Positions 3,117-48,513 of a stretch of DNA of 64,000 bases are shown in pieces. Position 1 is the stretch's first letter; each line of letters begins with the position of its first letter. The DNA comes from Alphaproteobacteria bacterium (GTDB taxonomy: Bacteria > Pseudomonadota > Alphaproteobacteria > Rs-D84), in NCBI GenBank assembly GCA_017463185.1, contig JAFTPS010000009.1, positions 1-64,000 on the forward strand, given 5' to 3'. The notes under the pieces were generated by a model. That model saw only the letters and a list, made by a program, of their open reading frames with translations. It made no database searches and was not told the origin of the DNA. The position numbers and the translations under genes are program-made.

Positions 3117-3369
3117 AATACAAAAAACCGCCGTGGAATTGGCGGTCGGGGATTGAAAAATCATATTACGAAATGACCCCGTGGCCTTTGGGTTGCCCCT
3201 GTTATATAACCACAGACCCCCGACCGGTTTTACTCAGTCGGGTTATTTAGATAAAACAAAAGGCACAAAATGTGCCGACGTTTTATTTTTTTAGTCGGAT
3301 ATCACACCGTTTTCAGTGTGTCGTAATACAGGATTTTTCAGGTCCCGAAAGCCACATCCCTGTGGATTC
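3117..3369 (-). promoter_or_regulatory. family A switch leader, copy A1
   Basis: The transcript should start near 3369, seven bases after a TATAAT box (3381-3376) with TTGTAT 17 bases further upstream. In order it shows: a CCACA/TGTGG start hairpin, a CGGGA/TCCTG hairpin with loop CCTGAAAAA, further small hairpins, a CCCGAC/GTCGGG hairpin (3219-3242), a conserved core with GTGG...CCAC around GGG/CCC, and a second CCCCGACC copy running into a CCGCC/GGCGG terminator with six T (3122-3145). The second copy can pair with GGTCGGGG of the earlier hairpin. It ends about 25 bases before the Cys-rich gene's start. Confidence 0.75.
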
Positions 3370-10760: not shown

Positions 10761-10931
10761 CATAGTGGCGGTTGCCACTATGGGGATTCACAACCCCGCA
10801 CTACGTGTCAGTGAAGACATAAAAACTCCAACTTGTTGGTTGGAGTGTGGTGAATATATTGAATAGCCACGCAATTCGTAGTGATTGTTGTGAAACTCCA
10901 ACCACCTGATTTTTTGGTGGTTTTTGTTTTT
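10761..10931 (+). promoter_or_regulatory. family B switch leader, copy B1
   Basis: Transcription should start near 10761, just after TAGTAT (10749-10754). The RNA shows a CATAGTGGC/GCCACTATG start hairpin, a GGGG/CCCC hairpin (10782-10797), the switch hairpin CTCCAAC/GTTGGAG (10826-10845), the conserved GAATATATTGAATAG, a CAATTC...ATTG element, and a second CTCCAACC (10896-10903) fused to a CCACC/GGTGG terminator with a T-run. Where copies B2-B4 have CTCCTGACC in both places, B1 has CTCCAACC in both places: a covarying change. The XRE gene starts about 20 bases later. Confidence 0.75.
10780..10866 (+). CDS. possible leader ORF in B1 (28 aa)
   Basis: This short frame opens with ATG in the first hairpin and encodes MGIHNP at the start and CGEYIE at the end, stopping right at the conserved GAATATATTGAATAG. 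Other family B leaders also begin a frame with MGCxNP at the same place, and the EYIE-stop codons are present in B3 and B4. It has no strong ribosome site. It may be a regulatory leader peptide or only RNA conservation read as protein. Confidence 0.3.
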   Translation: MGIHNPALRVSEDIKTPTCWLECGEYIE

Positions 10932-18188: not shown

Positions 18189-18436
18189 AGAATTCACAGG
18201 GATTGTGGGTTCGGGGCCTTAGAAAAGCCCATAAAACACCGGTGTGAGAAAATGCACACTGTAAATCCGCGCACAAATGTGGCGCGTATGCGCTATTTTT
18301 TTGTGTCAAAAATTCCCCGCGTGTCGGGGTGCCGTCGGTGTATGCAACAGGGCGTTCGCGCCCAAAGACCGGCGGGGTCATTGTGTTTTATGATTTTTCT
18401 AACACCCCGACCGCCGAAACTCTGGCGGTTCTTTTT
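18189..18436 (+). promoter_or_regulatory. family A switch leader, copy A2
   Basis: The RNA begins after TATAAT (18177-18182). It has a CACA/TGTG start hairpin, a GGGC/GCCC hairpin with loop CTTAGAAAA, an ACACCGGTGT element, a CCCCG/CGGGG hairpin (18315-18329), the conserved core (CAACAGGG...CCCAAAGACC and ATGATTTTTCTAA), and CACCCCGAC (18403-18411) fused to an ACCGCC/GGCGGT terminator with a T-run. CACCCCGAC can pair perfectly over nine bases with GTCGGGGTG (18323-18331), competing with both hairpins. The giant Cys-rich gene starts about 32 bases later. Confidence 0.75.
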
Positions 18437-18467
18437 ATATCCGAAAACTAAGAAATGGGGGGCGCAG

Positions 18468-21400
18468 ATGCATCGGAATATCGGGAATTTTTTATGTAAT
18501 TTAATTGCACGGAAAATTCACCACTTTTTTTTCTCTTTTACACTCATTCTGGTGCTGACCGCGTCCCCCGCCTATTCAGCGGGCTATTCATGTCCAACGT
18601 ATAAAAAATACACATCGTGTAATTCTGGGTATTATATGGTGGCCAGTTCATCGTCCACCACACATACCAGCACCGCTGCCGCCGGGAATGCATGTATTGC
18701 GTGTAGCAATGCTGGAACGGGATGTACTTGTGCGGGTGGCACAGCCGCACCGGTATGCTCGGTAAAAATAACCCTGAATAAAAATGGTGGTTCGGGCACA
18801 TGTGGTGGTGCGTCCAGTACAACCGCGGGCAGTGTGACGTGCACCCCAGGCAGTTCATGTACATTACCGTCATGGAGTAGTTCAACGTGTTCTTTTACAA
18901 ATGGGAATAAGATATTCAAGGGGTGGTCAACGTCGTCCACTGCGACCAGTGGCGTCACATCTATTACCCCAACCGCTGCAGCAACGTATTATGCGGTGTG
19001 GGTGACACCGACTTGTAGTGCCACAAACGGAAGTTGCGCTATTACAGCACCAAGCAGCAATGCACCACGCGCAACGATTTCATGTAGCACTGGATACAGT
19101 CAAAGCGGTGGTACGAATACAACAACGTCATTTATTGCGACTGGAACATCAGGTGCAACCAGTGTAAGTGGCACATGTAAAGCGCGTACTTATGTTGTGA
19201 CATTTAATACAAATTCTGCTACCAGTGGTTCACCAAGTGTCGCCAGTGTGACGTGTACGTATGGCAGTGCCTGTACGGCGGCAACACAGGGCACAATGTT
19301 GAAAACAAACAGTGTGTTTGGTGGATGGAATACTAACACCGGTGGTACAGGAACGAATTATTCATCAGGTGGCAGTATTAAAAATATTAGCACGGGTTCC
19401 AATGTGACATTGTACGCGAAATGGACAACGTGTACGGCATGTTCTGCTGGGACGGGCGCGACGTGTACATTGAGTGTTTCTAATAATACATGTACGTACA
19501 CAACAGCATGTAAGACTGGTTATAACACGCTGGCGAACAGTGGTAAGTATAACCCAAGCTGTACAGCAAATACATATACAGTTGCGTATAATGCAAATGG
19601 TGGGTCTGGCACAACCGCATCTAGCAGTCATACATACGATGAACCCAAAGCATTGACCAGCAATGGATTTACGAATGGTGTGAAGAAGTTCCTGGGATGG
19701 TCAACATCTAGCACAGCGACCAGTGCAACCTATACAAATGGTCAGAGTGTAAGTAATTTGACCTCAACGAACGGTGGCACAGTGACATTGTATGCGGTAT
19801 GGGGAACGTGTACGGCTTGTTCTGCTGGGACTGGTGCGACGTGTACATTGAGTGCACCAAAGGGTGTATGTACGTACACAACGGCATGTAAGACTGGTTA
19901 TAACACGCTGGCGAACAGCGGTAAGTATAACCCAAGCTGTACAGCAAACACATATACGGTGGCATATAATATTAACTGCCCTAGTGGGGTAACATGTTCC
20001 AGTGCGCCAAGCAGTACGTCTTGCATATACGACCAGACATGTACGTTCAGTTCAATTTCATCAACCGCCTTGTATGCAGGTGGGTATAAGTTGACCGGTT
20101 GGGCATCATCCAGTACAGGTACTGCGGCGACCAGTGGGTCCAGCCTTACTACAACGAACGGCGGTTCGGTCACACGCTATGCAATTTGGTCAAAATGTGC
20201 GGCGGGTACATATCACCCCGCGGCAACGGGTATTGCGGCAAATACATGTTCATCCGCATCCAAAGGATATTATGTTGGCAGTGCGGGTGCGACGGGTCAG
20301 ACTGTATGCGCAGCGGGCAAATATACTGATTCTACAGGGAAAACTTCATGTTCCGATGTGAATGCAGGGTATTACAACACTGGTTGCGGAACGAATGCGA
20401 CAGGTTCTGTTTGTTCAACATCGTACAGTGGTGGTGTAATTGCTGCGGGTTACTATGGTGGTGCGGGTGCGACATCGTCAACGGGTACAGGTAAAGTGTT
20501 GGCGGGTTATTACAGCACAGGTGGTGGCACATCGGCAACCCCAACTGCGGCGGGTAATGGATGTTTAAGTAGTTATAGTTGTGGCAAGGTGTCTGCGGGA
20601 TGTTATGGTGCTCAGGGCGCAACCAGTTCGTGTCCAACGGAATGCGCAGTTGGTTCGTATTCTGCGGCGGGGGCAAGTGCATGTATTGCGTGTACAAACG
20701 GAAAGACCACGTCTGGCACAGGAAAGACAAGTTGTGATGCAACTTGCTCTAATGTGACGGGTGCGTACGGATGGGCAACACCATCATGGAGTGCAAACAC
20801 AGTTAGCAACCTGTGTACGGTCAGCACATGCGCAACCAAGTACTATAAGAGCAGCAATGCGTGTACGTTGTGTTCGGGATTGGCAAGTGGGTTCTATCCA
20901 AACAGTAATAACGGCAACAGTTCTGGCACAAGTGCGTGTTATACAGACAGCCTGAGCGGTCAATACATCAAGGCTGCGAACGATAGCACGGCAACAGATT
21001 GTACAAACTGGACCTATAAGGGCAGTCATACCGTGAACTATGGTTCAACTTCGACTTGTGATGCCTGTTTGGCGGAACCAAGTGCGGTTAGTGGTGTGGC
21101 GTGGACCAAGGCAAGTGGTACCAAGTGGACATCATACAGCAGCTGTGTGGTTAGCCAGACACCTGCGAACTGTGCCAGCGGTAGTGTAAAGCGCACACAG
21201 ACCGACGCATCTACATGGGGTAGCACAACGTTGGCCAGTACGCTGAAATCCAACGCCGGTTATTATGCCAGCACGTCTGCGACGGCATGTACAGCGGCGG
21301 GTGATGGGTACTATGCGTTGGCGGGTGCGACCAGCCAGACGGCATGTGCAACGGGGTCGTACAGTACTAAGTCCAGTGCGTCATCATCTTGTACGGCGTG

Positions 21401-22661
21401 TCCGGCGGGACGTACAACATCAGGCACGGGAACTAAGTACAATGCAACCGCAAACACGGCTTGTGCAACAACCTGTGGCAATGCAAGTGGTGTACATACG
21501 TGGGCAAGCCCAAGTTGGTCTGCGAATACGGTTGCGAATCTGTGTGCTGTGTCAAAATGTAATGCGAATACGTATTACACAGCAACGACCGGCAGTGGGT
21601 ACAAGAATACATGTACATCGTGTGGTTCAAATTCATCCACGTCGGCGGGTAATACGTCAACAACATGTACGTGTACAACCGGTTATACCGCAGATGGCAG
21701 TGTGGATGGCGCATCGACCAGCACATCTGGGTGCAGTCTGATATCTGACATTGCGTGTGCGATTGGGTACTATCTGCCGGCAAGTTCTACAACGTGTTCG
21801 GCATGTACCGCGGGTTATTGGTGCCCAAGCAGTGCCAAGACATATTCGTACAGCAGCAGTAGTGTTCAGGGACGTACAGAATGTTCGGCCGGTACGTACC
21901 AGCCAGACACCGGTCAAACATCGTGCCTGAGTGCGGATGCGGGATACTATGTCAGTGGCACCGCCAAGACAGAACAGACGGCATGCACCGGTGCGACATA
22001 TGCCGCCAACACGGGTCAGAGTTCGTGCACGGCATGTCCAACGGCGACGAATAATGCGTCCAAGGCAACGGGATATTCGTACTGGAATACAGGTGGTACG
22101 GCAGATCATACGACGGTTAAGGGTTGTTATGTTCATTATTCAAATGATACAGTAAATAATGGTAGTGCGAGTTTGTATTACTGCTATGCTGATACGGACG
22201 CAGCAACAACCGGAGAATATGGTGTTGATGGAACATCCAAGGGTTGTTGGGTCTATTGGGACAAGCTGATGTGTGATGGCGGATACTATAATAAGAACTA
22301 TTCAACCAGTTCAAATTATGACTTTACCAACAAAACCATCGCCAATTTGAAGTCCAATGCATGTATCAGTGTGGGTGCGGGGTATTGGTCTGCGGATGAA
22401 AGCCTGACCCGTACAGCATGCACAAGTCCGTTGACAACCATCGGGTACGGCGCGGGTGCGAACGAGGCCACGGACTGTGGGCGCAAGTTGCACGCGGGCG
22501 ATAATGTGATTTACCTGCGCAGTGCGGAACGGACCAGTCCATCGCTGAGGGTCATGGTTGGTGAAGATACGTTCTATGGCGCGTTAAGCACAAGCCTGTC
22601 TGGTGCGCTAAAGGTCAAGAACGGCAGTACGGAATACTCGGTCGTGAATGATTATCAGTAA
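18468..22661 (+). CDS. giant secreted Cys-rich repeat protein (1397 aa)
   Basis: A signal peptide around residues 20-40 (FSFTLILVLTASPAYSA/G) is followed by about 1300 residues rich in Cys, Ser, Thr and Gly. Residues roughly 90-580 contain four or more InlB B-repeat-like (Listeria-Bacteroides) units, each with a YTVAYNANGG-type strand, a GW core and a VTLYAVW end. The rest is a ladder of CxxCxxGxY units like ephrin-receptor/GCC2-GCC3 modules (for example CSACTAGYWCPSS). It closes with a short Cys-free domain (VIYLRSAERTSPSLRVMVG). I start at 18468; the upstream frame extension runs through the leader RNA and is not protein. It is probably surface-exposed and disulfide-rich. Confidence 0.85.
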   Translation: MHRNIGNFLCNLIARKIHHFFFSFTLILVLTASPAYSAGYSCPTYKKYTSCNSGYYMVASSSSTTHTSTAAAGNACIACSNAGTGCTCAGGTAAPVCSVKITLNKNGGSGTCGGASSTTAGSVTCTPGSSCTLPSWSSSTCSFTNGNKIFKGWSTSSTATSGVTSITPTAAATYYAVWVTPTCSATNGSCAITAPSSNAPRATISCSTGYSQSGGTNTTTSFIATGTSGATSVSGTCKARTYVVTFNTNSATSGSPSVASVTCTYGSACTAATQGTMLKTNSVFGGWNTNTGGTGTNYSSGGSIKNISTGSNVTLYAKWTTCTACSAGTGATCTLSVSNNTCTYTTACKTGYNTLANSGKYNPSCTANTYTVAYNANGGSGTTASSSHTYDEPKALTSNGFTNGVKKFLGWSTSSTATSATYTNGQSVSNLTSTNGGTVTLYAVWGTCTACSAGTGATCTLSAPKGVCTYTTACKTGYNTLANSGKYNPSCTANTYTVAYNINCPSGVTCSSAPSSTSCIYDQTCTFSSISSTALYAGGYKLTGWASSSTGTAATSGSSLTTTNGGSVTRYAIWSKCAAGTYHPAATGIAANTCSSASKGYYVGSAGATGQTVCAAGKYTDSTGKTSCSDVNAGYYNTGCGTNATGSVCSTSYSGGVIAAGYYGGAGATSSTGTGKVLAGYYSTGGGTSATPTAAGNGCLSSYSCGKVSAGCYGAQGATSSCPTECAVGSYSAAGASACIACTNGKTTSGTGKTSCDATCSNVTGAYGWATPSWSANTVSNLCTVSTCATKYYKSSNACTLCSGLASGFYPNSNNGNSSGTSACYTDSLSGQYIKAANDSTATDCTNWTYKGSHTVNYGSTSTCDACLAEPSAVSGVAWTKASGTKWTSYSSCVVSQTPANCASGSVKRTQTDASTWGSTTLASTLKSNAGYYASTSATACTAAGDGYYALAGATSQTACATGSYSTKSSASSSCTACPAGRTTSGTGTKYNATANTACATTCGNASGVHTWASPSWSANTVANLCAVSKCNANTYYTATTGSGYKNTCTSCGSNSSTSAGNTSTTCTCTTGYTADGSVDGASTSTSGCSLISDIACAIGYYLPASSTTCSACTAGYWCPSSAKTYSYSSSSVQGRTECSAGTYQPDTGQTSCLSADAGYYVSGTAKTEQTACTGATYAANTGQSSCTACPTATNNASKATGYSYWNTGGTADHTTVKGCYVHYSNDTVNNGSASLYYCYADTDAATTGEYGVDGTSKGCWVYWDKLMCDGGYYNKNYSTSSNYDFTNKTIANLKSNACISVGAGYWSADESLTRTACTSPLTTIGYGAGANEATDCGRKLHAGDNVIYLRSAERTSPSLRVMVGEDTFYGALSTSLSGALKVKNGSTEYSVVNDYQ

Positions 22662-25760: not shown

Positions 25761-25853
25761 ATGGGGTGTGAAGACCCCGTGCCAGCATCGGAATGTGTGC
25801 CTGTTGTTGTGCATTTTTTTGCGCAAGATAAAATCATAGGGGCGAACCGATGA
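25761..25853 (+). CDS. possible leader ORF 1 in B2 (30 aa)
   Basis: The frame starts MGCEDP at the GGGG/CCCC hairpin and ends with TGA that overlaps the ATG of the next short frame (ATGA). The MGC[E/Q][N/D]P start is shared with copies B3 and B4. There is no clear ribosome site. Translation would control access to the switch hairpin downstream. Confidence 0.3.
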   Translation: MGCEDPVPASECVPVVVHFFAQDKIIGANR

Positions 25854-25924
25854 AAAAACTCCTGACCTGTCATCCGGTCAGGAGGGCTTGCGGAATGTAT
25901 AAATACGCAGCACAATTCTGGTAA
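25850..25924 (+). CDS. possible leader ORF 2 in B2 (24 aa)
   Basis: ATG at 25850 follows AGGGG by about ten bases and overlaps the stop of leader ORF 1. It encodes MKKLLTCHPVRRACG at the start and ends in QFW. The codons run straight through the switch hairpin and the conserved core. The VRRAC segment is also encoded in the same position of copy B4. A ribosome translating this frame would melt the hairpin. Confidence 0.35.
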   Translation: MKKLLTCHPVRRACGMYKYAAQFW

Positions 25925-25969
25925 TTGTCTTCAACCTCCTGACCGCCTTAGTTTTTGGTGGTTTTTTTA

Positions 25970-30435: not shown

Positions 30436-30646
30436 TAAAAAACCACCGTTAGATTTTGGTGGTCAGGAGGTTCAGAACAATCAAGTGAATTGTGTGCTTA
30501 TTCAATATATTCGCAACCCTCCTGACGCGAATGTTCAGGAGTTTTTTTCTTTTCGCCAAAATGTACCCCGTTTTTACGGTTTGGTTTTACATTTTGGTGC
30601 ACTTGTACGGGTTCTGACACCCCATCAACGGAAGTTCCCGTTGACA
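30436..30646 (-). promoter_or_regulatory. family B switch leader, copy B3
   Basis: The promoter TTGAAA-17-TATAAT (30680-30652) puts the start near 30646. The RNA shows a TCAACGG/CCGTTGA start hairpin (30625-30644), GGGGTGTCAGAACCC, a variable domain with ACATTTTGG repeats, the switch hairpin CTCCTGA/TCAGGAG (30519-30541), GCGAATATATTGAATAAGC, CACAATTC...ATTGT, and CCTCCTGACC (30470-30461) fused to an ACCACC/GGTGGT terminator with T6. A frame MGCQNP...stop lies at 30625-30587, and another, starting at ATG 30647, ends GCEYIE-stop. It precedes the three-gene secreted set. Confidence 0.75.
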
Positions 30647-42633: not shown

Positions 42634-45030
42634 ATGGCAGAAGACATCAAAAAAATTCACGAGCGCGAGGCAAAATGGCAAAAAAAATGGCGCGAGGCGC
42701 GCGCTTTTGTGCCAAAAGACGACGGCAGCAAACCACGTTTTTATACTCTGGTTGAGTTTCCGTTTTTGTCTGGTGCGGGTATGCACGCAGGGCATATGAT
42801 GAACTATTCTGGGATTGATGTTTTGGCGCGTTTTCGGCGTGCGCGTGGGTATGATGTCTTGTTTCCTATGGGGTTTGATGCGATGGGAATTGCGGGCGAA
42901 CATTACGCTACAAAAATTGGCAAACATCCCGCCGATGTTGCGCGTGAATTGATAAAATCTTATTCAGATATGATTGACCGTGTTGGCTGGTCGGTCAGTC
43001 CGGATACGCGGGTTGCGACATCTGACCCGGAATATATAAAATGGACGCAATGGATGTTTATTCAGTTCTGGAAAGCTGGATTGGCATATAAATCCGCTTT
43101 GCCGATGAACTGGTGTCCGGCGTGTAAAACGACATTTACAAACGAAGAATTGGAAGATAACAAATGTCCGCGCTGTCACGGTATAATTGAAAAGAAAGAA
43201 AAATTACAGTGGAATTTGGCCTTGTCGCGTTATTCGGAAAAATTACTGGCTGGATTAAACGATGTTGATTTTGAAGAACGTATTAAAAAGGATGAAATCA
43301 ATCTGATTGGTAAATCAAATGGTGCAGATGTGGATTTCCGGGTTGGGGATGATATTATGACGGTATATACCACACGCGTTGACACAATATTTGGTGTGAC
43401 ATTCTGTGTTATTGCGCCGGAACATAAATTATTGGCAAAATGGCTGGACGACGGTAAAATCACAAATGCGGACCAGGTTCGTGCCTATATCAAAGAATCC
43501 GCCGCAAAATCAGAAATTGAACGAACCGATGCGACCAAGGAAAAAACCGGTGTTGAATTAAAGGGGATTAAAGCCATAAATCCATTTAATGGTCGCGAGA
43601 TACCGGTCTTTACATCGGATTATGTGTTGGTTGATTATGCGTACGGTACAATTATGGCGGTGCCGGCACACGATGGTCGTGACTGGGATTTTGCGAAAAA
43701 GTTTGGTCTGGATATTATCCCGGTTTTGGCGGGGGGCGAGCCAGATAAAGTCTGGGAAGGTGATGGCGTGCATATCAATTCGTCATTCTTGGATGGTATG
43801 GGCAAGACTGACGCAATTGCGGCCGCGATTAAATATGGTTCTGAGAAAGGTTTTGCGCGCGGTACAACCAAGTATAAATTAAAGGATTGGGGATTTTCGC
43901 GTCAAATGTACTGGGGCGAACCAATTCCAATGGTGTATTGTGAAAAATGTGGTTGGCAACCCGTTGATGAATCTGAATTGCCGGTTATGCAGCCATTTAT
44001 GATGGACTATCGCCCAACGGATACGGGTGAAAGCCCATTGGCGCGTGCGACGGATTGGGTGAATACAACCTGTCCACATTGTGGTGGTGTGGCAAAACGC
44101 GAAACAGATACTATGCCGGGATGGGCTGGGTCTTCGTGGTATTTCCTGCGCTATTTGGATCCAAAAAACGACAAAGAGTTTTGTTCACGCAGACAGATGG
44201 AAAACTGGATGCCGGTGACGCATTATAATGGTGGGCATGAGCATAATACACGTCATTTGATTTATTCACGATTTTGGCACCACGCATTGTATGATTTGGG
44301 TCTGGTGAATACGCCAGAGCCGTATGCGCGGCGCACGGCTCAGGGTTTGTTGATGGGGAATGATGGTTATAAAATGTCAAAATCCCGTGGAAATGGCTTT
44401 ATGGTGGCAGATTTGGTTGACAGTGTCGGTGCCGATGCGGGGCGTGTGGCGGTGTTGTCGCTGGGCCCGTGGGAGAATAATGCCGTATGGACTGATGGTG
44501 CGCTGGCCGGTGTACAACGTTTCCTGAAACGTGTGGAAAATATGTCGGATAATTTAACCGATGAACCAATGACCGCGGACCAGGAAAGATTGGTACACAA
44601 ATTGATTGCAGATGCGACAGAACGTTTGGAAAATATGAAATTCAATACAACAATTTCCGCGATGATGGAATATATCAATGCGTTTGGTGGTGCGATGCCC
44701 CGCCCTGCGTATGAAACGTTGTTGCAGATATTGAATCCTTTTGCGCCACATTTAACTGAGGAAATGTGGGAAAAGTTAGGGCACGATACCATGTTGGTTT
44801 TTGAACCTTGGCCAACATTTGATGCGTCAAAACTGGTGAAAACATCAATGACAATTGTTGTGTCGGTCAATGGCAAACGTGTGGCAGACTTTGTTGTGCC
44901 GGCGGATGCAGATGAGGCCACTATTGTAGCCGCTGCCAAAGATGCAGCCGGCGCAAAACTGGATGGTGCAACGATAATAAAAACAATTGTCGTTCCGAAA
45001 AAACTGGTAAACTTTGTGGTAAAGAAATAA
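42634..45030 (+). CDS. leuS: leucyl-tRNA synthetase
   Basis: The protein is 798 aa, about 60 residues shorter than the E. coli enzyme. Signatures: FPFLSGAGMHAGHMMNY (HAGH for HIGH), a zinc-type CPACKTTFTNEELEDNKCPRCH insert, the CP1 editing domain with TTRVDTIFGVTFCVIAPEH and YGTIMAVPAHDGRD, and YKMSKSRGNG (KMSKS). The last 51 codons are duplicated at 47345-47497. Ribosome site is weak; AAGGTA lies upstream of ATG. Confidence 0.96.
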   Translation: MAEDIKKIHEREAKWQKKWREARAFVPKDDGSKPRFYTLVEFPFLSGAGMHAGHMMNYSGIDVLARFRRARGYDVLFPMGFDAMGIAGEHYATKIGKHPADVARELIKSYSDMIDRVGWSVSPDTRVATSDPEYIKWTQWMFIQFWKAGLAYKSALPMNWCPACKTTFTNEELEDNKCPRCHGIIEKKEKLQWNLALSRYSEKLLAGLNDVDFEERIKKDEINLIGKSNGADVDFRVGDDIMTVYTTRVDTIFGVTFCVIAPEHKLLAKWLDDGKITNADQVRAYIKESAAKSEIERTDATKEKTGVELKGIKAINPFNGREIPVFTSDYVLVDYAYGTIMAVPAHDGRDWDFAKKFGLDIIPVLAGGEPDKVWEGDGVHINSSFLDGMGKTDAIAAAIKYGSEKGFARGTTKYKLKDWGFSRQMYWGEPIPMVYCEKCGWQPVDESELPVMQPFMMDYRPTDTGESPLARATDWVNTTCPHCGGVAKRETDTMPGWAGSSWYFLRYLDPKNDKEFCSRRQMENWMPVTHYNGGHEHNTRHLIYSRFWHHALYDLGLVNTPEPYARRTAQGLLMGNDGYKMSKSRGNGFMVADLVDSVGADAGRVAVLSLGPWENNAVWTDGALAGVQRFLKRVENMSDNLTDEPMTADQERLVHKLIADATERLENMKFNTTISAMMEYINAFGGAMPRPAYETLLQILNPFAPHLTEEMWEKLGHDTMLVFEPWPTFDASKLVKTSMTIVVSVNGKRVADFVVPADADEATIVAAAKDAAGAKLDGATIIKTIVVPKKLVNFVVKK

Positions 45031-45031
45031 A

Positions 45032-45058
45032 AAAACGCCCATTGGGCGTTTTTTTAAT
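45032..45058. terminator. terminator of leuS
   Basis: AAAACGCCC / GGGCGTTTT with a short ATT loop and a T-run directly after the leuS stop; it also ends the convergent protease gene. Confidence 0.88.
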
Positions 45059-46685
45059 CATTTTCTTGGTCTTTTTCTTTGTCGTCTGAATCGCGATTTA
45101 TTATTAAATCGCCAACTAATCCGCCCACCGCACCAACACCAGCCACGATGCCACCGGTCTTGGTTTGTTTTTCGGTGTCGGCCTTTTGTTTGTCCCAATT
45201 GGTGGCGTCCTGACCGTCTGGATCGGATAATGCGCGGGATAATGATGTGTAGGTCCCGTCCGTTTTTCCACGCGCAATATCGTCATACAGGCCAGATGTG
45301 GCGGAATCCTGGATAGCGTTGGATTCTAGGCCGGGCGATATCCCCAGTTGCTGTTTGCGTAATTTCAAATCGTTTGCCAATTTGATGTATTCCGTTTTTA
45401 ATTTCAATAAATCATTTCCGCCCGGCAATTCAATGTTTGTTTCGCCGCCACGAATGTTTTTTCCGGCCCCATAATTGCATGTAAATGTTGCCAGATATGC
45501 CCGCATATCACGTTCGGCCGCTTGGTCCGCCTGTTGTTCCGCCAACCCCGATGCCAGCATCATGCCCCCTATCCCAGTTGCGCCAATTGCCAGCCCACCC
45601 AGGATACGGTTTGGTTTAGATTGCTCGCGTTCAAGTGCGCGTTCATAGTTTTCTTTTAATACACTATAATTCGTTGTCTGTCCCAGAAAACTTAGAAATT
45701 CCGCATCTGTCATGTTTGATACAGTTGTTAGTTGTGATTCAAGATTTGTTGCAACCTGGTCTAATATTTCTTGTTGGTCATTTATGGTTGTGTCAGTGTT
45801 TGTTGAATAGTCTGTATCGGTGTCTGGTTGGTTGTTATTGGCTATTGTGGTTGGGGAACGGGTTATCATTTCCTGAAGGGGCTTATAATAAAGTTTGGGG
45901 GATACGGCATGGTCCGTATTGTATTTATCAATCCAGCTGTCTGCACCATAAGAACATATGCCATATAATGTATTGCCGGAAAAATACGCCCCGCCGGAAT
46001 TGCCACCCCATGCATCGCATGTAGTGCTGATTGTGTCGTCGTCGTTTTGTTGATTGAACAGGCGACAAGTTGTGTCTGCTTTCAGTCGGTATCCGTTGAT
46101 GTTGTAATCCCAATCGTATAGGTCGGGTATATTTGCGGCCTGTATTTGTTGCTGGACTTGTTCTAGTACCGTATCAAAGTCAATAAATTGGTTTTGGTCA
46201 CCGATTTTATTTGTAAAAATTTGTTTGATTTGCTGTATTTCGTCATTTGATAATATTCGCATATAGCCAAATCCGGCATTGGTGACGAACAGATGTTTTG
46301 TTGTATTGTGGACGTCAAAATAGTTATTACTAAAAAAGTTCGGGTCAGATATATGCAGAAGTGCCCAATCTTGGTTGATGTTTTTGCCGTATTGTTCCAA
46401 TGTGACATTGGTTGTGCGCCCGTCATATAGTTGAATTTCATAAGTTTTACCAATGTGTTGGTAGTTATCATGTTCATAGTTGGATGTGACACAGTGGCGC
46501 GCGGTTAAAATAATATCTTTGGCAACATATTGCGCTGTGCAGGAGGCGTATTGATGGGGGCGAAAATACACGATTTGATTATATGGCCATTTTGACCAAT
46601 CAACATATTCGCGTTGGTCTATGTCGCCAACGCCGGCGTATGCGGACGCACACGATAAAAATATCAACAAAAATATAGGTTTCAT
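45054..46685 (-). CDS. secreted trypsin-like serine protease with membrane C-terminal part
   Basis: The protein is 543 aa. A signal peptide (MKPIFLLIFLSCASAYA/G) leads to a chymotrypsin-fold domain: His in LTARHCV, Asp in NQDWALLHI and Ser in GGNSGGAYF. Paired cysteines (CTAQY/RHC and CRL/CDAW) fit trypsin-type disulfides. Residues about 300-540 form a second part with two Gly/Ala-rich hydrophobic segments (GGLAIGATGIGGMMLASGLA and GGIVAGVGAVGGLVGDLI) and a coiled middle. I start at 46685 (GGGAG upstream); a longer frame runs into leader B4. The gene is bracketed by leuS and a duplicate leuS 3' end, which suggests acquisition. Confidence 0.85.
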   Translation of the reverse strand: MKPIFLLIFLSCASAYAGVGDIDQREYVDWSKWPYNQIVYFRPHQYASCTAQYVAKDIILTARHCVTSNYEHDNYQHIGKTYEIQLYDGRTTNVTLEQYGKNINQDWALLHISDPNFFSNNYFDVHNTTKHLFVTNAGFGYMRILSNDEIQQIKQIFTNKIGDQNQFIDFDTVLEQVQQQIQAANIPDLYDWDYNINGYRLKADTTCRLFNQQNDDDTISTTCDAWGGNSGGAYFSGNTLYGICSYGADSWIDKYNTDHAVSPKLYYKPLQEMITRSPTTIANNNQPDTDTDYSTNTDTTINDQQEILDQVATNLESQLTTVSNMTDAEFLSFLGQTTNYSVLKENYERALEREQSKPNRILGGLAIGATGIGGMMLASGLAEQQADQAAERDMRAYLATFTCNYGAGKNIRGGETNIELPGGNDLLKLKTEYIKLANDLKLRKQQLGISPGLESNAIQDSATSGLYDDIARGKTDGTYTSLSRALSDPDGQDATNWDKQKADTEKQTKTGGIVAGVGAVGGLVGDLIINRDSDDKEKDQEND

Positions 46686-46715: not shown

Positions 46716-46936
46716 TATAAAAACCACCAGAAAATTCGGGTGGTCAGGAGGTTGAGAACAATTATCGGAATTGTGCTGCTTATTCAATATATTCGCAAGC
46801 CCTCCTGACCAATGGTCAGGAGTAGTTGTTCATCTGTGATACATAAAAATACGCCCATAAAAATGGTGCGTCGTTTTTTTTATTCACAGACGCCGATATC
46901 GGGTTCTCACACCCCATCATCAGAATCCCTGATGAC
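46716..46936 (-). promoter_or_regulatory. family B switch leader, copy B4
   Basis: The promoter TTGAAT-17-TATAAT (46971-46943) is followed by a TCATCAG/CTGATGA start hairpin, GGGGTGTGAGAACCC, a variable domain, the switch hairpin CTCCTGACC/GGTCAGGAG with a 3-base loop (46822-46802), GCTTGCGAATATATTGAATAAGC, CACAATTC...ATTGT, and CCTCCTGACC (46751-46742) fused to an ACCACC/GGTGGT terminator and a weak T-tract (46728-46716). The protease start codon is 31 bases beyond. Confidence 0.77.
46816..46917 (-). CDS. possible leader ORF in B4 (33 aa)
   Basis: The frame opens ATGGGGTGTGAGAACCCG (MGCENP) in the second hairpin and ends TGA inside the left arm of the switch hairpin (MNNYS-stop). The same frame downstream of the stop reads VRRACEYIE, matching the VRRAC of B2 and EYIE of B1 and B3. 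No obvious ribosome site. It may be a leader peptide or a decayed short gene. Confidence 0.3.
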   Translation of the reverse strand: MGCENPISASVNKKNDAPFLWAYFYVSQMNNYS

Positions 46937-47344: not shown

Positions 47345-47497
47345 CGTGTGGCAGACTTTGTTGTGCCGGCGGATGCAGATGAGGCCACTATTGTAGCCGC
47401 TGCCAAAGATGCGGCCGGTGCAAAAATGGATGGCGCAACGATAATAAAGACAGTTGTCGTTCCGAAAAAACTGGTAAACTTTGTGGTAAAAAAATAA
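47345..47497 (+). pseudogene. leuS: duplicated 3' fragment of leuS (last 51 codons)
   Basis: The 153 bases align with leuS 44878-45030 without gaps, ending in the same TAA. I count seven differences: most are at third codon positions (GCA/GCG, GGC/GGT, GGT/GGC, AAA/AAG, AAG/AAA), plus CTG/ATG and ATT/GTT. There is no start codon or ribosome site of its own, so it is a fragment. It is followed by its own terminator. Mostly synonymous differences suggest the copy came from another strain's functional leuS rather than decaying here. Confidence 0.9.
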
Positions 47498-47524
47498 AAA
47501 TCCCGCCATTGGCGGGATTTTTAT
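47498..47524 (+). terminator. terminator after leuS fragment
   Basis: AAATCCCGCC / GGCGGGATTT with an ATT loop and T-rich tail, in the same position as the terminator after intact leuS but with a different stem sequence. Confidence 0.8.
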
Positions 47525-47605
47525 TTTTTTAATCATCTGGACACATCCAGATTTGTTGAACATAAAGCATTTGAATTTTTTATTTGTTTAATGTATAGTT
47601 ATTTT

Positions 47606-47846
47606 GAATCCAAAGGGATATTGGGTTCGGGACTTAGAAAATCCCGTAAGTATGTAGTACCGATATATCGGTGCTATTATCCGACAGAATTTTTGTCGGC
47701 GCATTTATGCGTCGTTTCTTTTCTGTATCCCGACCTTTTCGGTCGGGAAGTTGTGGTTATACAACAGGGGGTATCCCAAAAGCCACAAGGTCATTCATAC
47801 TTATGATTTTTCTAACTTCCCGACCGTCAATGTTTGACGGTTTTTG
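47606..47846 (+). promoter_or_regulatory. family A switch leader, copy A3
   Basis: The promoter is TTGAAT-17-TATAGT (47571-47599). The RNA has a CCAA/TTGG start hairpin, CGGGA/TCCCG with loop CTTAGAAAA, ACCGAT/ATCGGT, CCGAC/GTCGG, GCGCAT/ATGCG, the switch hairpin TCCCGACC/GGTCGGGA (47728-47748), the core GTGGTTATACAACAGGG...CCCAAAAGCCAC, ATGATTTTTCTAA, and CTTCCCGACC (47816-47825) fused to an ACCGTCAA/TTGACGGT terminator with T5. Every stem differs in sequence from copies A1 and A2 but keeps pairing. Two Cys-rich genes follow. Confidence 0.8.
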
Positions 47847-47875: not shown

Positions 47876-48160
47876 ATGAATGTCAAAATTTTAATTGTTA
47901 TTTGTTCTTTTGTTGTCGTGGCAAGTGCGCACGCAGGATGTGCAACATTTGCATATAAGACATCGTGTTTATCTGAGGGTGGTGTTTTATGCGCTGACGG
48001 AGGTTGCTATGTGTGTTGTGATGCGGATAATACCGGTGCCACGACAGTATGTTCAGGGACATATACCACAGATACTTCTTTGACTTTCTCGGATGAAAAA
48101 GGCAGCGGATATTATAGTCGCAAAAAATATACCAAGTCTTGCAAGTGTCTAGAGCTATAA
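47876..48160 (+). CDS. small secreted Cys-rich protein (94 aa)
   Basis: A signal peptide (MNVKILIVICSFVVVASAHA/G) precedes about 74 residues with ten cysteines (CATFAYKTSC, GGVLCADGGCYVCCDAD, VCSGTY, SCKCLEL). The ribosome site is AAGGGA. A TDTSLTFSDEKGSGYY stretch near the end resembles loosely the TD-TGT module of its relatives. It is translated just ahead of the next Cys-rich gene and lies behind leader A3. Confidence 0.72.
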   Translation: MNVKILIVICSFVVVASAHAGCATFAYKTSCLSEGGVLCADGGCYVCCDADNTGATTVCSGTYTTDTSLTFSDEKGSGYYSRKKYTKSCKCLEL

Positions 48161-48174
48161 CTATGGGGGCAGAT

Positions 48175-48513
48175 ATGAAAAAAATATATTTTATTGTATT
48201 GATTTTTTGTGCACAAAATACTTATGCCGCAATTGCCACCACTTATTGTAATGCGAAGGCGACATATACATCCTGCAATGCTGGATATTATTTATCAGGT
48301 GGTAATTGTGTTGCTTGTGAAAAAGGAACATATAAAGACAGCGTTGGGACAGATTCATCGTGTTCGGATTGTCCGTCATTGGGCGGTGTTGCAGGGACTA
48401 CATCGTCCGCTGGCACAACATCAAGAACATTATGTTTTATACCGTCTGATTCATCTGTGAGTGACAGTTCCGGTACATACATATTTACCAGCGATTGTTT
48501 TTATACCGAGTAA
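48175..48513 (+). CDS. small secreted Cys-rich protein with SD-SGT motif (112 aa)
   Basis: A signal peptide (MKKIYFIVLIFCAQNTYA/A) is followed by a TYTSCNAGYYLSGGNCVACEKGTYKD module (a single CxxGYY...CxxC unit like those repeated in the giant protein), DSSCSDCPSLGG and the recurring end C-FIPSDSSVSDSSGTYIF-x-x-DC. GGGGG five bases upstream supports this ATG over 48163. It looks like a one-repeat version of the giant Cys-rich protein. It is the second gene behind leader A3. Confidence 0.75.
   Translation: MKKIYFIVLIFCAQNTYAAIATTYCNAKATYTSCNAGYYLSGGNCVACEKGTYKDSVGTDSSCSDCPSLGGVAGTTSSAGTTSRTLCFIPSDSSVSDSSGTYIFTSDCFYTE

Follow-up and report, generated by a model that had tools for sequence, protein, structure and literature searches.

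A repeated alphaproteobacterial leader that carries a guide RNA and its own target, probably a self-silencing unit of the P4 CI and P1 c4 kind

What does a leader do whose RNA can adopt two mutually exclusive folds, and which occurs seven times in 64 kb of a bacterial genome? We consider the question for one of the seven, leader A3, in a window by which we mean the whole 64,000-nt stretch that was analysed. An initial annotation had read all seven (A1 to A3, B1 to B4) as attenuators, in which a segment X pairs with X′ while a downstream copy, X2, competes for X′ at the cost of a terminator. The exclusive pairing stands, but that reading omits two guide segments, a target for them at the 5′-end and a first terminator. 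With these parts included, the region is probably the leader of a self-silencing unit of the kind known from P4 CI and P1 c4.

All parts of A3 lie on the plus strand. A −10-like hexamer read from the sequence, TATAGT (47594..47599), precedes a 5′ hairpin, GAATCCAA..TTGGGTTC (47606..47628), at the putative transcript start. Two target segments, identified by guide-target scoring, come next: b′ (TTAGAAAA, 47634..47641), complementary to guide b, and a′ (CGTAAGTATG, 47645..47654), complementary to guide a. They are followed by a candidate first terminator, T1 (GGCGCA-TTTA-TGCGTC and GTTTCTTTTC; 47698..47723), whose A3 copy was likewise read from the letters, and by X (TCCCGACC, 47728..47735), the 5′ arm of the X:X′ hairpin. 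The guide-RNA element itself (47741..47825) is a three-way junction closed by the helix P1 and a homologue of sRNA-Xcc1 (RF02221). In it, X′ (GGTCGGGAAGTT, 47741..47752) forms the 5′ arm of P1, guide a (CATACTTATG, 47796..47805) lies within the P3 hairpin, guide b (TTTTCTAA, 47808..47815) occupies the junction J3/1, and X2 (AACTTCCCGACC, 47814..47825) forms the 3′ arm of P1. The second terminator, T2 (ACCGTCAATGTTTGACGGT and TTTTG; 47823..47846), has the letters ACC in common with X2. The ORF that follows (47876..48160) encodes a small protein of 94 aa with a signal-peptide-like N-terminus and without a Pfam match.

The surroundings of A3 deserve a brief description. The second gene after it (48139-48513) encodes a Cys-rich secreted protein with Ephrin_rec_like and Giardia VSP-like Pfam matches. 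A 186-nt direct repeat, 90% identical, is found at 44878-45063 and 47345-47530; the repeated sequence is the 3′-end of the long ORF at 42634-45030, which probably encodes an aminoacyl-tRNA synthetase, copied as a remnant just 5′ of A3. Leader B4 and its protease gene sit between the two copies, an arrangement that insertion of this block with duplication of one end would produce.

The other six leaders of the window are built alike. On the plus strand are the elements of A2 (18322-18412; b′ 18219-18227, a′ 18230-18239), of B1, which is of the CTCCAACC type (10838-10903; b′ 10787-10794, a′ 10799-10805) and has an HTH_3 protein downstream, and of B2 (25876-25944; b′ 25769-25775, a′ 25780-25785). 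Those on the minus strand belong to A1 (3144-3225; b′ 3332-3340, a′ 3321-3330), B3 (30461-30527; b′ 30611-30617, a′ 30600-30605) and B4 (46742-46810; b′ 46903-46909, a′ 46893-46898), the last with a trypsin-like protein downstream. In the region 18252-22661, the ORF downstream of A2, 1469 aa long, has List_Bact repeats (Pfam Flg_new) and contains a 198-nt direct repeat (19395-19592 and 19773-19970).

The window comes from contig C7 of a 1.04 Mb genome. We infer that its genus is Candidatus Enterousia (order Rs-D84), which is among the named GTDB records retrieved with the A core and which comprises Rs-D84 gut Alphaproteobacteria with genomes of ~1 Mb (PMC12306168); the data for the genus are all MAGs. 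Whole-genome searches gave 20 A copies and 27 B-model matches in the source genome, about 45-47 leaders in total, of which 42 (20 A and 22 B) were analysed. Across the genus, the two leader-family models occur in 50/59 and 53/59 genomes, with up to 49 A-model and 48 B-model matches per genome, some overlap between the models being possible. The B form is nearly restricted to the genus and its close relatives. The tests of pairing, energy and guides described below used 150 distinct copies from the genus (77 A, 73 B). Some A elements are paired: two stand in tandem in the source genome (L171, 1067-1158 and 1301-1387), followed by an ORF resembling an RgpF-type one, and divergent pairs ~1 kb apart occur in three genomes (G048:C2:161718-162803, G038:C4:79642-80728 and G050:C42:3226-4313), suggesting a conserved two-headed locus.

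The rival pairings X:X′ and X′:X2, which the initial annotation had proposed, are present in all seven leaders, and both covary throughout the genus. The X:X′ hairpin has a median length of 7 bp in A and 8 bp in B, and scores at least 15 in 65/77 A and 73/73 B copies, against 31.7 and 19.5 when the flanks are shuffled; it is weak in A2 (5 bp). P1, the rival helix, has a median length of 9-10 bp. The three parts change in concert, as had been claimed: the GGTCGGG, GGTCAGGAG and GGTTGGAG types each come with matching X and X2, and the pooled comparison of own with swapped X hairpins gave 0/5000. The overlap of X2 with the terminator is also real, but it amounts to a few nucleotides only (ACC, 47823-47825, in A3), so that pairing of X2 would trim T2 at its base rather than destroy it, and the proposed breaking of the terminator can be at most part of the mechanism.

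An antiterminator far less stable than the alternative in every copy would have spoken against a switch. Fold energies computed under explicit X:X′ and P1 constraints differ (X state minus P1 state) by +0.4 ± 6.2 kcal/mol in A and −2.0 ± 4.0 kcal/mol in B over the 150 copies; the spread is wide, and the two states lie within 3 kcal/mol of each other in 63/150. The folds being near-isoenergetic on average, the antiterminator is not far weaker in all copies, and a switch is thermodynamically plausible in many of them. An upstream copy of X is above chance in the genus and is also found in 18/22 loci of other Alphaproteobacteria, against 10.2 by chance; in RF02221 loci the count is 11 against 11.2 expected, which leaves none above chance. 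A further candidate, coverage of the Shine-Dalgarno sequence by the freed X2, was set aside: own versus swapped pairs gave 0/5000 overall, but 35/5000 and 54/5000 within the families, a weak signal that partly reflects shared ancestry.

What kind of RNA do X′ and X2 enclose? P1 (X′:X2), P2 and P3 form a three-way junction, with a conserved core in P2 (UAUACAACAGG..CC.AAAG in A, GAAUAUAUUGAAUA in B). The structure is borne out by pairing in 96.1% of cells and two-sided changes at 18/22 pairs in A, and by 98.3% and 7/17 in B; in neither family did any of 500 shuffles reach the covariation of P1, P2 and P3. RF02221 was matched by 5/9 A loci scanned, the two highest scores being 47.3 and 45.7 bits over the full length (1-87; E about 3e-6), short of the gathering score of 53 bits. 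We therefore regard the A element, at the level of sequence and structure profiles, as homologous to RF02221, a relative rather than a scored member. A model built on A (R1) also detects loci in further families of Alphaproteobacteria. At the gathering threshold Rfam returned tRNAs only, and none of the scanned A or B loci matched the C4, c4-2 or isrK model at E values up to 1. Cross-model scores between A and B reach 27.8 and 21.0 bits (E about 1e-3), but some hits are on the reverse strand and the shared P1 helps the scores, so homology of A and B is suggestive only.

The loop of P3 (a) and the junction J3/1 (b) are hypervariable across copies, and a and b are complementary to b′-a′ near the 5′-end of their own leader, about 85-93 nt before P1. 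A two-segment test was adopted, the single-segment version being diluted, most of all in B. Own pairs score 37.4 against 26.6 for swapped pairs in A (n = 77) and 32.7 against 22.9 in B (n = 73), and the own target ranks first among all in 56/77 A and 70/73 B. The genus mean was reached in 0/10000 permutations, a count that is not a strict probability because the copies are related. Among B leaders with GGGGTG-N7-CC, guide b and the 7-nt b′ agree exactly in 37/37, against 6.9% of swapped pairs. In the source genome 41/42 guides score highest with their cognate target among the 42. On this crude scale of complementarity, which is not one of energy, isolation is incomplete, since the best non-cognate target (mean 30.7) is not far below the own one (34.9; all non-cognate, 24.4). 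What makes the case strong is the covariation of guides with targets within a constant surrounding scaffold. It might also be asked whether the guides of any one genome are kept distinct from one another. Among 268 and 346 pairs none was identical, but only about 1-2 were expected per set; with ~3 expected in 614, their absence is not significant.

A TATAAT-like box precedes the b′ end in 66/73 A and 65/69 B leaders, mostly by 40-51 nt, which would place the target at the start of the transcript, after a 5′ hairpin that is conserved as GAATYCA-CAGGGAT-TGGGTTC. Strict criteria detect a T1-like hairpin between target and element in only 83/150 copies (32/77 A, 51/73 B), against 3 in shuffles (1.4 and 1.8); a T2-like hairpin follows P1 in 118/150 (68/77 A, 50/73 B), against 4 (2.4 and 1.2). 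The start codon is uniformly placed, at a median of 51 nt from the end of P1. By a simple hydrophobicity rule, 124/144 downstream genes have a signal-peptide-like N-terminus, compared with 5/29 control ORFs of the window; the remaining ones include glycosyltransferases, RgpF, a protein with polymorphic-membrane-protein repeats and an HTH protein.

These results bear on two simpler views. If competition among X, X′ and X2 alone decided T2, the real and covarying pairings and the frequent T2-like hairpin would be accounted for, but neither the guide-target covariation nor T1 would be explained, and X2 has only a few nucleotides in common with T2; we consider this view very improbable. Hardly any weight can be given to the still simpler one, that the leaders are dispersed mobile repeats whose hairpins serve DNA transposition and have no regulatory role. 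Such repeats would be expected to lie scattered in many copies per genome, as the leaders do, and RF02221 is carried by phages and integron cassettes, but uniform start-codon spacing, promoters, terminators and covariation of both guide-target and RNA-type pairs argue otherwise.

We prefer the view that the leader silences its own unit. The order would be promoter, 5′ hairpin with b′-a′, T1, X:X′ hairpin, antisense RNA, T2, Shine-Dalgarno sequence and ORF. Occasional read-through of T1 would make the guide element. Where P1 wins over X:X′, the element would fold and be released as an RNA of ~85 nt, a release we propose because sRNA-Xcc1 has been mapped as 88 nt. The guide RNA would then use a and b to pair with the 5′ target of new leaders, favour termination at T1 and so silence the unit. 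As X competes with X2 for X′, X would control maturation of the guide RNA, and formation of X:X′ would free X2 to complete T2 and possibly to mask the Shine-Dalgarno sequence. The trans action, the regulatory sign and the processing of the guide RNA are presumed here.

The loci of RF02221 give this model its context. The family is present in 58/398 genomes sampled across the phylum. In beta- and gammaproteobacteria and in phages it adjoins antirepressor and SymE genes, just 5′ of them; ten of the Pfam-scanned ORFs that follow it are Bro-N, P22_AR_N, KilA-N and pRha antirepressor-type proteins and SymE. In Vibrio phage VPBES an annotated sRNA-Xcc1 is closely followed by a small ORF and a gene for a DNA-binding protein, and in related Vibrio phages the matched gene is named KilA-N. 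P1 c4 with ant (PMC12197685) and P4 CI with seqA/seqC (PMC4825925, PMC10111431) are arranged alike. Integron cassettes of Xanthomonas also have RF02221 before SymE (PMC12444791). When 30 RF02221 loci were scored, two sites matched the guides, one upstream and one around the Shine-Dalgarno sequence of the next ORF (each 0/5000). In 22 loci of other Alphaproteobacteria the upstream site is again significant (0/5000), and the Shine-Dalgarno region is not (240/5000). In the genus, where guides were scored against the leader upstream of the element, the best-matching site is at the 5′-end of the leader. Complementarity of two guides to a site in their own transcription unit, the mark of the P4 CI and P1 c4 type, is thus found. 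The resemblance to P4/P1 immunity that the initial annotation suspected is well supported by the relation to RF02221, whose members precede phage antirepressor genes, and by the c4/CI-type pairing; attenuation is a putative outcome.

The main rival is a purely intramolecular switch, in which the guides would pair with the target of their own transcript in a long-range pseudoknot, fix P1 and thereby set access to T2 or the ribosome binding site, with no RNA acting in trans; the junction may also be where a ligand or protein acts. Guide and target are always on one leader, the conserved internal loop of P2 is not explained by an antisense function alone, and the X and P1 folds are alike in average energy, all of which such a switch would accommodate. 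Against it, sRNA-Xcc1 is reported to occur free in Xanthomonas, as an RNA of 88 nt whose ends were mapped (PMC2996969), RF02221 loci have two alternative targets, one over the ribosome binding site, as in P4 and P1, and the guides differ in 37/37 B pairs of the same genome whose 5′ scaffold is identical. We give this switch a low but appreciable probability. The sign of control could also be reversed. Salmonella IsrK, which has been called structurally homologous to P4 SeqA, acts in trans to activate translation (PMC4825925), and structure around T1 could face competition from pairing at the target, so a short trans RNA might open the leader or relieve termination. As P1 c4, P4 CI and the RF02221 pairing that covers ribosome binding sites are all repressive, activation seems unlikely.

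If self-silencing is accepted, what could so many leaders do in one cell? With ~45 mostly non-interchangeable addresses, most of the genes could be silenced independently. It is conceivable, and we offer it tentatively, that a phage immunity RNA was domesticated and multiplied into ~45 mostly non-interchangeable self-silencing switches, each setting a secreted or surface gene heritably ON or OFF, which would vary the surface from cell to cell without DNA rearrangement. In this uncultured gut lineage the leaders are candidate regulators through which surface proteins could be controlled independently. A single RNA regulator present in tens of copies per ~1 Mb, each with a two-part address, is also natural material for the study of how cross-talk is avoided.

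How do the leaders compare with known systems? sRNA-Xcc1 shares with A the P1-closed junction, the AUACAA-type core of P2, the guides in the P3 loop and J3/1, and the ORF directly 3′; it differs in that Xcc1-type loci also target the downstream ribosome binding site and have no X hairpin above chance. The portions of its literature available to us annotate it as a trans-acting virulence sRNA, mention neither antirepressors nor self-targeting, and state no link to the P1 c4 and P4 CI class; RF02221 belongs to no clan in Rfam 15. The present analysis ties this family to those classic immunity RNAs, and a “virulence sRNA” whose guides match the ribosome binding sites of antirepressor and SymE genes may warrant reannotation as c4-like. 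One locus (L119) has both an RF02221 element (1501-1585) and a sub-threshold c4-2 (RF02944) match (2890-2958).

SymE/SymR is similar in that RF02221 precedes SymE in two loci, but SymR of E. coli is a cis-encoded antisense RNA, whereas RF02221 lies upstream on the same strand. P1 c4, as described in PMC12197685, precedes the ant genes, and its guide set determines specificity and heteroimmunity. P1/P7 c4 (C4/c4-2, clan CL00128) has the same outer helix, hairpin, loop-bearing hairpin and junction, with complementary loop segments; its target is at the ribosome binding site, whereas the best-matching of the upstream sites scored in the genus is at the 5′-end of the leader. P4 CI is similar in layout: from its leader RNA, processing is described to yield a small RNA, which pairs with the upstream seqA site of the same leader (PMC4825925, PMC10111431). 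Like it, the genus leaders have a SeqA-like upstream target, followed in 83/150 by the T1-like hairpin. P4 CI controls phage genes, whereas the leaders described here precede host genes, add a copy of X and come with many addresses per genome; T1, the upstream X and the use before host genes appear to be what is new in the genus.
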